DNA of 62,819 nucleotides, from positions 1 through 62,819 of the forward strand of contig DATKMQ010000096.1 of assembly GCA_035541755.1 (NCBI GenBank), given 5' to 3'. A program made the position numbers and the translations under genes. Of the stretch, positions 14,569-17,984 are shown piece after piece. How positions within the stretch are numbered: position 1 is the stretch's first letter; each line of letters opens with the position of its first letter. Origin of the DNA: Syntrophorhabdaceae bacterium (lineage in GTDB: Bacteria; Desulfobacterota; Syntrophorhabdia; Syntrophorhabdales; Syntrophorhabdaceae). Under the pieces are notes generated by a model. The model had not been told where the DNA came from, did not search any database, and worked only from the letters and a program-made list of their open reading frames with translations.

Positions 14569-15375
14569 ATGGATCAGATAGATTACTACGAGATTCTTGA
14601 GATAGATAAAGAGGCATCTGCTCAAAACATAAAGGAGTCGTATCGCAGGCTCGCCTTCCAGTATCATCCGGACAGAAACGATGGGGACACACAGGCCGTC
14701 GAGCGCATGAAGGCGATCAATGAAGCCTATGCCGTGCTTTCCGATCCTGAAAAGCGCGCCCGTTATGATGGGTTGCGTCAATCGTACGGTTATTCCGCTT
14801 ACGATCGTTTCAGACAGAGCTACACTGAGGAGGACATTTTCAGGGGCTCTGACATCGGTCAGATTTTTGAGGAGATGGCCCGGTCATTTGGTTTTCGCGG
14901 GTTCGAGGACGTATTCAGGGCCTCATATGGTCAGGGCTTTCGCACGTTCGAAGTGGGGAAACCCGGATTTGCCGCGCGGGGTTTTATCTTCTCCGGCCCA
15001 CTGTTTGGCGGTGGCGAGCGCCGTGAAATGCAGCCGATCTCAGGGGCTTTCCCAGGACTTTTCGGTAAGCTGCTCAAGTTCGCCTTGAAAAAGATGACCG
15101 GCGTGGAATTTCCCGAAGCCGGCAAGGACCGTTATGATGTAATGGTCGTGAGCGCCCGTCTCGCCGACGAGGGAGGCAAGGTAACGTATAGAGACAAAGT
15201 ACGGTCAAGACAACTCCTTGTTACGATTCCACCGGGGATACGCAACGGTCAAACGATCCGGTTAAAGGGCGTAGGCCGGCAAGGCAAGAATGGGGGTATA
15301 CCTGGCGATCTTTATTTAAGAGTGGAGATACAAAGACCGGTTTTGCAAAGAATCAGAAACCTTTTTAAGCCATGA
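14569..15375 (+). CDS. DnaJ-like co-chaperone (CbpA type, no zinc finger)
   Basis: I start at 14569 (MDQIDYYEILEI) because the J-domain begins directly there; an upstream in-frame ATG at 14470 would add 33 unrelated residues. The J-domain (about 1-70) carries the HPD tripeptide at residues 33-35 (FQYHPDRND), needed to stimulate DnaK ATPase. A Gly/Phe-rich linker (FGFRGFEDVF, YGQGFRTFEV) follows, then a DnaJ C-terminal substrate-binding domain (YDVMVVSARLADEGGKVTY, LLVTIPPGIRNGQTIRLKG). The CxxCxGxG zinc repeats of DnaJ are absent. No DnaK or GrpE gene is nearby. Confidence 0.88.
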   Translation: MDQIDYYEILEIDKEASAQNIKESYRRLAFQYHPDRNDGDTQAVERMKAINEAYAVLSDPEKRARYDGLRQSYGYSAYDRFRQSYTEEDIFRGSDIGQIFEEMARSFGFRGFEDVFRASYGQGFRTFEVGKPGFAARGFIFSGPLFGGGERREMQPISGAFPGLFGKLLKFALKKMTGVEFPEAGKDRYDVMVVSARLADEGGKVTYRDKVRSRQLLVTIPPGIRNGQTIRLKGVGRQGKNGGIPGDLYLRVEIQRPVLQRIRNLFKP

Positions 15376-15412: not shown

Positions 15413-15441
15413 TTGACAAAGAGCATCAAATCACATAATAT
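15413..15441 (+). promoter_or_regulatory. Sigma-70 promoter of the tandem attenuator region
   Basis: TTGACA at 15413-15418, a 17-base spacer and TAATAT at 15436-15441: a near-perfect housekeeping promoter. The expected start of transcription (about 15447-15450) is only a few bases before the ATG of the first leader peptide, so that peptide would be almost leaderless. Confidence 0.75.
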
Positions 15442-15452
15442 CTTCGGGCAAA

Positions 15453-15524
15453 ATGAAACGGTTAGATCAATCAGTGCAGGTTTACTATTACTATAACAGA
15501 GGGAGAGCCCTGCCTGCAGGTTGA
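15453..15524 (+). CDS. Tyrosine-rich leader peptide 1
   Basis: A 23-codon frame, MKRLDQSVQVYYYYNRGRAL followed by PAG and TGA. Codons 11-14 are TAC TAT TAC TAT, four tyrosines in a row. An intrinsic terminator (15547-15578) begins 22 bases after the stop. The GCCCTGC stretch at 15507-15513, just beyond the tyrosine run, can pair with GCGGGC of the terminator's 5' arm, the arrangement of a classical attenuation leader. Weak points are the missing ribosome site and the very short mRNA leader. Confidence 0.62.
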   Translation: MKRLDQSVQVYYYYNRGRALPAG

Positions 15525-15546
15525 TTGGAGTCATATGCTGATCAAA

Positions 15547-15578
15547 AGCCGCGGGCGGTAAAGCCTGCGGCTTTTTTT
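15547..15578 (+). terminator. Attenuator terminator 1
   Basis: AGCCGCGGGC (15547-15556), loop GGTAAA, GCCTGCGGCT (15563-15572): ten base pairs with one G-U wobble, with the T-tract running from 15572 to 15578. It is a strong factor-independent terminator placed between leader 1 and leader 2, with no ordinary gene before it other than the leader. Confidence 0.85.
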
Positions 15579-15621
15579 GTGTGCCGAACGAGTGAACGCA
15601 GTGATTAAGATCGGAGTCCAT

Positions 15622-15723
15622 ATGGAATCGATTTTTGTGTCAGTTGAGAATGGTTTCTTAGAACATACCCGAAACGAATACAACAACTATTACTACTATT
15701 ATTACCGCGCACATCCGCCTTAG
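15622..15723 (+). CDS. Tyrosine-rich leader peptide 2
   Basis: A 33-codon frame with a GGAG ribosome site five bases before the ATG. The peptide MESIFVSVENGFLEHTRN continues EYNNYYYYYYRAHPP and stops at TAG. Seven of nine successive codons (20-28) are tyrosine codons, six of them consecutive. The bases CGCACA (15708-15713), directly after the last tyrosine codon, are complementary to TGTGCG (15750-15755) in the 5' arm of the following terminator. A ribosome at the stop codon would cover CGCACA and let the terminator form; one stalled at the first tyrosine codons would leave it free to block the terminator. Confidence 0.75.
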   Translation: MESIFVSVENGFLEHTRNEYNNYYYYYYRAHPP

Positions 15724-15746
15724 GCCCCTATTCAGTATCATTGTGG

Positions 15747-15782
15747 CCCTGTGCGGATCAAACCGTTCAGGGTCTTTTTTTT
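15747..15782 (+). terminator. Attenuator terminator 2
   Basis: CCCTG..CGG (15747-15756), loop ATCAAA, CCG..CAGGG (15763-15772), with a two-by-two internal mismatch, followed by TC and eight T residues (15775-15782). It sits 41 bases before the ATG of the acyl-CoA synthetase gene and after leader 2, so it must be passed for that gene to be expressed from the 15413 promoter. Confidence 0.8.
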
Positions 15783-15823
15783 GCCGTAAAAGACGTTCAA
15801 AAATAAACAAGGAGGAAGTAATT

Positions 15824-17902
15824 ATGTTAGACGCCTTATTCAGACCAAAGGCAGTAGCGGTAGTGGGAGCCTCAGCAAAAGAGCTCAATGTGGGCAACAG
15901 GATCATCAAGAACCTGGTTGATTTTGGCTTTACCGGAAAGATCTATCCGATTAACCCCAAAGTTGACGAGATACGGGGAGTGAAAGCATATAAATCTATT
16001 CTCGACGTTCCAACGGACGTTGATGTAGTGCATCTTCCTATACCGGCTGCCTCCGTGCCCCCGGTGATCGATGAATGCGGCCGGAAGGGGGTTAAATTTG
16101 TGATTCTCAATGGCGGGGGATTCGCCGAGACTGGCGCTCAAGGGGAGGCGATTGAGCAGGACTGTATGACCCGGGCTAAGAAACACAATATCAGAATATT
16201 CGGCCCCAATTGTCAGGGGATAATCAATACAGCGGCCGAGTCCCGGGCGTACTGCAACTTCACCTTCACCAAGCCCAATCCCGGTGTTGTCTCTCTCATC
16301 GCCTTATCCGGCGGTGTGGCCGAACTGTTGCATCAGAGTCTATTCCAGATGGGCGTGGGAACAAGGATGTATGCCTCAAACGGAAACGCTTGCGATGTGT
16401 CTATACCGGAAATCATCAAATACTACGGCGAGGACGAGGGGACCCAGGCGATCGTACTCTACGTGGAGGGCCTGCGTGACCCCGACACATTTCTCAAAGT
16501 CGCACAAAAGGTTGTAGCCAAAAAGCCAATCCTTGCCATGAAAGCGGGTCGAACTGAAGAGGGCGCCAGGGCCGCAGCATCCCACACGGGCGGCCTTGCG
16601 AAGAAGGATATCACGACAGACCTTATCTTTGAAAAGGCCGGTATTCTTTGTTTCCACGATGAGCAGGAGCTCTGTCAGGCAGCAGCGGTATTCACCACGC
16701 AGCCATTACCAAAAGGCAGGCGGGTGGGCGTGATAACGAATACCGGGGGGCCTTCCGTCATTGCCACGGACGTGCTCGTCAGCGGCTCTCTTACCACACC
16801 GCCTCTTTCTGAGAAGACAAGAGCGATCCTCACAGAAAAGCTTCTTAAGGAGGTGACCGTGCGAAACCCCGTGGACGTGCTCGCCACGGCCAATGCCGAC
16901 CACTTCAGGGCCGCCCTCGATGCGCTTATGGATGACGATGCTATCGACAGCATTTATATCAGCATGGTCACGCCATTTTTTGTGGATCACGGGGCCATCG
17001 CCCGCCAGATCGTGGAGGTGAACAGGTTCAAGAGAAAACCGATCGTCTGTACACTCATGACGGACAAAGAGGGCTGCGCTGAGACCGTGAACATCTTAAG
17101 AAAAGGCGGCGTGCCTTGCTATGATTTTCCTTCGACGGCGGCGAGAGTGCTCGTCTCGCTTACCCGCTATAGCGAGATACGCAGAAGGCAGGCCGGCAGA
17201 ATCAAACATTTTCACGATGCGGATCGGGTGAAGGCACAGGCTATCGTGAATAAGGCGCGAAATATCGGCCAGGCGAGACTTCCAGCCGATGATGTTTACG
17301 AAATCATGCGGGCCTACGGGATCCCTGTTGCCGACTGGAAAGTCGCAAAGGATGCAGCGGGTGCGCTGATTGCCGCACGGGAAATAGGATTTCCCGTTGC
17401 TATCAAGGCCGATTCCCAAAGCATACTGCATAAGAGTGAGATGGGTGCGGTAGTGACGAATCTGTCCGATGAAGCCCACCTCGCCCAGGCCATAGAAAGG
17501 ATCGGCAAAACCTGCCGCGCCCCCGATCTGAGATTTATCATTCAAAGGCATGTCGAAGGTGGCAAAGAGGTTATCGTGGGCGCCAAAGCCGATCCGGAAC
17601 TCGGGCATCTTATCATGTTCGGCATGGGCGGGGTATATGTCGAGGTATTGAACGACGTGGCGTTTAGACTCGCCCCCATCACCGATGTTGAAGCGCGTGA
17701 GATGATCCTCTCTTTAAAGGCTGCGCCAATACTCAAAGGGGTACGAGGTGAGCGGGGAGTCGATCGGGAGCGCCTCGCAGAGATTATTGAGCGCGTCTCC
17801 CAACTCATGATTGATGTGCCTGACATTCGCGAAATAGACCTCAATCCGGTTATCGCCTTTGAGGACCGTGCCTGCGCTGTCGATGCGAGAATAATATTGT
17901 AG
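15824..17902 (+). CDS. Acyl-CoA synthetase, ADP-forming (fused alpha-beta)
   Basis: I start at 15824 (MLDALFRPKAVAVVG), seven bases after a GGAGGA ribosome site; an in-frame ATG at 15743 lies inside the terminator. The 692-residue protein has a CoA-binding Rossmann domain (SVAVVGAS-type, residues 8-100), a succinyl-CoA-ligase-like domain (about 140-290) with the phosphorylated His in AASHTGGLAKKD, a second ligase subdomain, and a C-terminal ATP-grasp domain (about 480-690; AAREIGFPVAIKADSQSILH). It makes acyl-CoA from acid, CoA and ATP reversibly via phosphohistidine. The acid cannot be read from sequence. Two tandem tyrosine leader/terminator units precede it. Confidence 0.9.
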   Translation: MLDALFRPKAVAVVGASAKELNVGNRIIKNLVDFGFTGKIYPINPKVDEIRGVKAYKSILDVPTDVDVVHLPIPAASVPPVIDECGRKGVKFVILNGGGFAETGAQGEAIEQDCMTRAKKHNIRIFGPNCQGIINTAAESRAYCNFTFTKPNPGVVSLIALSGGVAELLHQSLFQMGVGTRMYASNGNACDVSIPEIIKYYGEDEGTQAIVLYVEGLRDPDTFLKVAQKVVAKKPILAMKAGRTEEGARAAASHTGGLAKKDITTDLIFEKAGILCFHDEQELCQAAAVFTTQPLPKGRRVGVITNTGGPSVIATDVLVSGSLTTPPLSEKTRAILTEKLLKEVTVRNPVDVLATANADHFRAALDALMDDDAIDSIYISMVTPFFVDHGAIARQIVEVNRFKRKPIVCTLMTDKEGCAETVNILRKGGVPCYDFPSTAARVLVSLTRYSEIRRRQAGRIKHFHDADRVKAQAIVNKARNIGQARLPADDVYEIMRAYGIPVADWKVAKDAAGALIAAREIGFPVAIKADSQSILHKSEMGAVVTNLSDEAHLAQAIERIGKTCRAPDLRFIIQRHVEGGKEVIVGAKADPELGHLIMFGMGGVYVEVLNDVAFRLAPITDVEAREMILSLKAAPILKGVRGERGVDRERLAEIIERVSQLMIDVPDIREIDLNPVIAFEDRACAVDARIIL

Positions 17903-17942: not shown

Positions 17943-17984
17943 ATCGGAGGACCTCCCGGATAGCTATCCGGGAGGTCCTCCGAT
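17943..17984. repeat. 42-bp perfect palindrome
   Basis: Two 21-base arms meet without any spacer: the half ending in CCCGGATAG at 17963 is mirrored exactly by CTATCCGGG beginning at 17964. There is no T-tract after it. It sits 40 bases after the acyl-CoA synthetase stop and before queH. In RNA it would be a very strong hairpin that could end transcription or protect the mRNA 3' end; in DNA it could extrude a cruciform. Confidence 0.85.

Follow-up and report, generated by a model that had tools for sequence, protein, structure and literature searches.

Two tyrosine-codon leaders in series, predicted to attenuate transcription of an ADP-forming acyl-CoA synthetase gene in Syntrophorhabdaceae

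In an uncultured, anaerobic Syntrophorhabdaceae bacterium the gene acs, encoding an ADP-forming acyl-CoA synthetase, is very probably controlled by two serial, ribosome-mediated transcription attenuators, reading tyrosine and, in relatives, also phenylalanine: comparison of sequences points to both units. That charged tRNA-Tyr gates this gene twice had been proposed in a sequence-only reading of the region. Attenuation is supported by predicted folds and by the comparison with relatives, a check named in that reading, but the signal has to be widened to Tyr/Phe.

In the proposed mechanism, ample charging of Tyr-tRNA (and, in relatives, of Phe-tRNA) would let the ribosome reach the leader stop codon and cover the segment lying behind the aromatic codons, and the terminator would form. 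With low charging, the ribosome would stall in the Tyr run; the freed segment would pair with the terminator's 5' arm, letting RNA polymerase read on. As the two gates are in series, a transcript would have to pass both to reach acs. We infer both the translation of the leaders and their response to charging.

Organization of the two units

The window, that is the whole stretch of DNA analysed, is 62,819 nt long; the units occupy the intergenic stretch between a dnaJ-like gene (ending at 15375) and acs (starting at 15824). Positions 15413-15823 contain, in this order, one promoter, a Tyr-rich ORF followed by a terminator and a second Tyr-rich ORF followed by a terminator, all on the + strand, as is acs itself. 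Tyr runs of at least four codons, within closed ORFs, occur only twice in the window on either strand, and both are found here; in 5000 dinucleotide-shuffled versions of the region, no such run arose. A further 29 aromatic runs are present in the window genome (G000): among the 7 inspected, no clear leader-plus-terminator case was seen. An Rfam scan of the region returned sub-threshold chance matches only, and the T-box covariance model found no match in it up to E 5.

Relatives of acs were sought, at E < 1e-150, in the other 45 genomes of the order (all genomes compared are draft assemblies). Three contain them: G020 and G021, from the same family as the window genome, the latter with two copies, and G045, from another family.

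The promoter (15413-15441) is sigma-70-like, TTGACA-N17-TAATAT, as originally read: the hexamers, at 15413-15418 and 15436-15441, show 10 of 12 consensus matches and are separated by a 17-nt spacer. A TTGACA-N17 promoter with a -10-like hexamer is found at the equivalent place in G021 and G020.

Leader peptide 1, MKRLDQSVQVYYYYNRGRALPAG, is encoded, with its stop codon, at 15453-15524, and the four consecutive Tyr codons attributed to it are seen at 15483-15494; its homologues contain the runs Y8 in G020 and FYYFYY in G021. The terminator described behind it is also found (intrinsic terminator 1, 15544-15582), as a hairpin at 15544-15575 plus a T-run. Segment 1, the protector, GUGCAGG (15474-15480), pairs with segment 2, CUGCCUGC (15510-15517), and the core of this pairing, GCAGG/CCUGC, is kept in three of three loci. 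Segment 2, in turn, forms 8 of 8 pairs with segment 3 in all three loci. Segment 3, contained in the 5' arm of the terminator, is GCGGGCGG in the window (15551-15558) and GCAGGCAG in the relatives: both pair with CUGCCUGC, two of the pairs being G-U in the window and A-U in the relatives. The pairing first suggested for this unit, GCCCTGC with GCGGGC, overlaps the conserved antiterminator but is not identical to it, the conserved one being CUGCCUGC/GCGGGCGG. On sequence grounds, unit 1 has the 1:2, 2:3, 3:4 layout of the trp attenuator; of the three loci, only G021 has the protector 1:2 pairing as the dominant one in its pre-termination fold.

In the window, leader 1 starts about 5 nt past the expected transcription start, as estimated from promoter spacing, while in G020 and G021 its 5' UTR spans about 24 nt and includes a GGA-type ribosome site. 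The near absence of a 5' leader, already remarked upon, is therefore true of the window and not of the relatives; it may reflect nearly leaderless translation, or decay of the unit. A candidate unit 1 in G045, where a Phe-rich ORF and a terminator are present, was set aside, as it has no convincing antiterminator.

Leader peptide 2, MESIFVSVENGFLEHTRNEYNNYYYYYYRAHPP (15622-15723, stop codon included), is preceded by a GGAG ribosome site. It contains a Tyr codon at 15679 and a run at 15688-15705: six consecutive Tyr codons, and seven within nine, as had been counted. The conserved antiterminator of this unit is composed of two helices, AUCCGC (15713-15718) with GCGGAU (15753-15758), and GGCC (15723-15726) with GGCC (15745-15748). 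Its 5' half (15713-15726) overlaps the final codons of leader 2 together with its stop codon; its 3' half coincides with the 5' arm and loop of the terminator (15745-15758). Intrinsic terminator 2 (15745-15782, a hairpin at 15745-15774 plus T8) is absent from the listing of a simple terminator scan, yet it folds and is kept in five loci, which bears out the second terminator of the original description.

Over the five loci, 98% of the alignment cells are paired for the antiterminator, and at most 46% when the alignment is slid by 1-3 columns; for terminator 2, 96.7% are paired, with one two-sided change (C-G to U-A) in G045. Covariation in unit 2 does not exceed that of column shuffles, with five loci and little variation available (three loci for unit 1): as a comparison of sequences, the alignment indicates conservation of pairing, rather than strong covariation. 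No clear protector 1:2 pairing is seen in unit 2; such a pairing is optional in ribosome-mediated transcription attenuators.

Related loci, folding and attenuators elsewhere in the group

Both units are present in G020, with leaders MKHNQFMQVYYYYYYYYTKGRNLPAY and MEFFVTLKNKSFKTESYYYYYYWRGSP, and in copy 1 of G021, with leaders MKHNQLSQANFYYFYYNEGRNLPAY and MEFFMTLKDKHPETETYCYCYCYCKGPP. Copy 2 of G021 features unit 2 alone, with the Phe-rich leader MPFVASGRTTFALFIFFGFFSCIDPP, and G045 a Phe/Tyr leader, MFEKTAEYYFGFFFYSGRSGPP, plus the unit-2 terminator. Counterparts of leader 2 are thus found in five loci, and aromatic codons are kept in these and in the three unit-1 loci. The runs are not always of Tyr codons: Tyr is the codon signal of the window and of G020, but elsewhere it is Tyr/Phe/Cys, Phe or Phe/Tyr. 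In leader 2 of G021 copy 1 (L025:8100-8132), Tyr and Cys codons alternate, as YCYCYCYC. Alternative pairings are likewise kept in the relatives, but not the one originally picked for unit 2, CGCACA/TGTGCG, which exists in the window and is missing elsewhere, the conserved pairing being a different one. Apart from their aromatic codons, the unit 2 leader peptides are poorly conserved, while terminators and antiterminator pairings persist, as expected if codons and RNA are what matters.

The leader-bearing synthetases form one clade, with support 100/99 (four full-length sequences). G020 was left out of this tree because its acs is frameshifted: a short tandem duplication of about 22 bp (L009, around 2890-2935) shifts the frame, and is either an assembly error or the sign of a broken gene. 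Homologues further removed, at about 45-61% identity and found in scattered members of the phylum, are not preceded by any leader.

For eight units, the transcript up to before the 3' arm of the terminator was folded with a ribosome placed at each aromatic codon. With the ribosome in the aromatic run, the 2:3 helix reaches a mean P of about 0.6-0.99 at nearly every position, the exception being three early codons in G045 (0.23-0.32). In unit 2, codons at the start and in the middle of the run leave region 2 free, and the last one or two are too close to it. A ribosome at the stop codon covers region 2 in 8 of 8 units. The anticipated behavior, with read-through upon stalling and termination when the stop codon is reached, agrees with these folds, where the stalled ribosome leaves the antiterminator free and the one at the stop codon covers it. 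In nearly every case the terminator is the more stable fold at equilibrium: the decision must then be kinetic, as in known attenuators.

When a covariance model of unit 2 was searched across the 46 genomes of the order, only the five acs loci scored at E < 1e-14; weaker matches follow after a wide gap. Sixteen of these were inspected and include other attenuators, with codons fitting the gene; some of the weakest resemble plain terminators. Trp runs (WWWW or similar) precede TrpB-like genes, so named by NCBIfam matches; Val/Leu runs precede acetolactate synthase and Phe/Tyr/Trp runs DAHP synthase, both named from the translated sequence. The window genome contains a leader, MTRKTYTAQWWWWQLS, before trpB2, with two successive terminators (L174, G000:C16:32363-32425; L178:84-5294), and in G026 (L179) trpB2, an aminotransferase gene and IOR-like genes follow a Trp leader, indicating that control of IOR by amino-acid attenuation exists in the group. 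From these comparisons, leader-peptide attenuation is common in the group, with the codon matched to the pathway; this match serves as an internal control for how the acs leaders are interpreted.

Among individual loci of these types, acetolactate synthase-like genes are preceded by Val/Leu-run leaders and terminators in L053, L054, L055, L056, L064 and L065, and DAHP synthase-like genes by Phe/Tyr/Trp leaders such as MKEQRKMQENINKYFGWWYFNASLHPRPH in L175 (G021), L057 (G019) and L063 (G038). In the window genome, the TrpB-like gene is followed by two ORFs matching parts of IOR alpha (L178).

Aromatic amino-acid supply and the role of acs

The gene downstream of the two units (15824-17902, 692 aa) is clearly, by Pfam, the ADP-forming acyl-CoA synthetase that had been named as the target: CoA-binding (CoA_binding_2), succinyl-CoA-ligase-like (Succ_CoA_lig) and ATP-grasp (ATP-grasp_5) domains are all found in its single chain. 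NCBIfam equivalogs all score below cut-off against it. Its relatives in the PDB are 8wzu and 4xyl, the nearest solved chain being 8wzu, a 4-hydroxybutyrate--CoA ligase [ADP-forming]. In the window, acs is followed by queH, a DUF2905 gene, queC and queE; the gap between acs and queH contains a perfect 42-bp palindrome (17943-17984), with 21-bp arms, no loop and no T-run.

In the window genome, G020 and G021, prephenate dehydratase was not found (PF00800 and a local PheA profile), and only fragments of prephenate dehydrogenase were (PF02153 and a local TyrA profile); the same PF00800 and PF02153 searches match in 14 of 14 control genomes. A weak PF02153 match in the window genome was rejected as TyrA, being a D-2-hydroxyacid dehydrogenase. 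Chorismate synthase is also missing in the window genome and in G020. In G021, aroC (L142:1276-2460, G021:C64) is fused in frame to the C-terminal 40 residues or so of TyrA, ending in ...SLAELDRVTAKLEYLKHIIREKDQEEL; read at sequence level, the fusion is a deletion scar, by which pheA and most of tyrA were removed. Across the order, full PheA is plain in 13 of the 46 genomes and full TyrA in 17; as far as gene searches indicate, loss of the classical aromatic pathway is widespread. Chorismate synthase goes undetected in 27 of the 46 and prephenate dehydratase in 33, many of the genomes being more than 95% complete. IOR alpha scores over the curated cut-off in the window genome, G020 and G021. 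In G045, a genome 84% complete, PheA and TyrA are retained and no IOR exceeds the cut-off. Among the IOR genes examined, none was seen to follow a Phe/Tyr leader.

The apparent loss of the prephenate route in the window genome, which was not part of the original reading, gives control by Tyr a biological sense. The product of acs would most likely be an arylacetyl-CoA (4-hydroxyphenylacetyl-CoA or phenylacetyl-CoA), which an IOR-type ferredoxin-dependent oxidoreductase would carboxylate, giving the arylpyruvate from which Tyr or Phe is directly made; acs would thus belong to a Tyr/Phe supply route of bacteria devoid of the prephenate branch. We lean, by a small measure, towards this assignment of acs as an aryl-acid CoA synthetase feeding Tyr/Phe synthesis from arylacetates, where both substrate and direction are deduced: it explains the control, the gene losses and the fact that the copies in G021 switch between Tyr and Phe codons. 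An aryl substrate also fits the benzoyl-CoA-type dearomatising genes found beside leaderless acs homologues. Our confidence is evenly divided on the broader proposal, that a group of anaerobic bacteria without prephenate branch, and often without chorismate synthase, obtains Tyr and Phe from scavenged arylacetates via an ADP-forming acyl-CoA synthetase and IOR, under serial Tyr/Phe attenuators acting as a steep double gate on charging.

The same attenuators might instead control an acs devoted to energy conservation or to aromatic-acid degradation, a shortage of aromatic amino acids being a proxy for starvation or slow growth. Leaderless homologues do adjoin benzoyl-CoA-type dearomatising genes, in catabolic clusters, several of them immediately 3' of a gene for a dehydratase or a benzoyl-CoA-reductase-like protein; in ADP-forming synthetases the reaction often proceeds toward acid and ATP (PMC3942289), and the retention of PheA and TyrA in G045 fits such a role as well. 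Induction upon lack of an amino acid is, however, the logic of synthesis, and the other attenuators found by the covariance model, where the target is identified, all precede a biosynthetic gene for the encoded amino acid. The loss of PheA and TyrA in three leader-bearing genomes also fits synthesis, and we consider the degradative or energetic role possible, though rather unlikely.

Much less probable is a leader sensing the i6A37/ms2i6A37 state of the tRNAs decoding UNN codons (Tyr, Phe, Cys, Trp), as a possible readout of iron-sulphur or methyl-donor status. Under-modified tRNAs shift trp and phe attenuators, and the runs of the acs loci consist mostly of UNN codons, the YCYCYCYC of G021 among them; but control by aromatic amino acids leaves only the Cys codons unaccounted for, and Val/Leu codons serve in related attenuators of the group. 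Even more improbable is that the leader reads queuosine (Q34) rather than charging, so that ribosomes would slow down when Q is lacking, with more que expression as a result, as might be suggested by queH, queC and queE downstream of acs, and by the Asn and His codons flanking the Tyr run of leader 2. Codons of Q-tRNAs are not found in all members: Phe replaces Tyr in unit 2 of G021 copy 2, Phe codons also occur in G045, and tRNA-Phe, to our knowledge, carries no Q. Moreover, no que genes lie behind acs in G020 and G021, and in the window acs and queH are separated by the perfect palindrome and about 150 bp. A chance origin, from TAY tandem repeats in an AT-rich intergenic region beside ordinary terminators, can practically be discarded, given the shuffles and a conservation that spans five loci and is accompanied by both synonymous and non-synonymous changes.

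With the assignment to Tyr/Phe supply, the leader codons, naming the amino acid to which a gene answers, would place an anonymous acyl-CoA synthetase in a pathway, and would make a case for arylacetate-based aromatic amino-acid synthesis in bacteria that look auxotrophic by standard annotation. Two attenuators placed in series for kindred signals are moreover a rarity, and such doubling should make the response sharper; the comparison shows the codon specificity shifting between Tyr and Phe around a fixed RNA switch.

Comparison with known systems

The acs units resemble the trp/phe/his-type attenuators of Proteobacteria in the short leader ORF, the run of regulatory codons, the alternative antiterminator and terminator hairpins and, for unit 1, the 1:2 protector. 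They differ from them in the use of Tyr codons, in the serial doubling of units for one amino acid and in the target, an ADP-forming acyl-CoA synthetase. No Tyr-codon attenuators were found in the open literature searched or among Rfam matches. Serial amino-acid gates before one gene are also formed by the tandem T-box leaders of Firmicutes, which recognise uncharged tRNA by direct binding and work without a leader peptide; the acs region, in contrast, contains leader peptides and has no Rfam T-box match.

We know of no leader-peptide attenuation in the aryl-acid route of Methanococcus maripaludis. There, arylacetates are activated, carboxylated by IOR to arylpyruvates and transaminated, as a second route to aromatic amino acids, according to the part of PMC4162585 citing Porat et al. 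That route is archaeal, while the one proposed for acs is bacterial, with a putative substrate for acs. A candidate functional analogue of acs is ACS2 of Pyrococcus furiosus, ADP-forming, which uses aryl-CoAs and accepts acids derived from aromatic amino acids (PMC3942289); ACS2, however, has two subunits and works in the catabolic direction, while acs is a single chain and would work in the anabolic one.

For the serial arrangement, the closest parallel among the systems compared is Salmonella mgtCBR, where two leader ORFs and two attenuators likewise stand in series before one gene, the second reading the charging of proline tRNA (PMC3641672). In mgtCBR the two units respond to ATP and to proline, respectively (PMC3641672), whereas both acs units would read the same or kindred amino acids. 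The type of control is thus already known; new are the serial attenuators for kindred amino acids, the Tyr codons and an ADP-forming acyl-CoA synthetase as the target.
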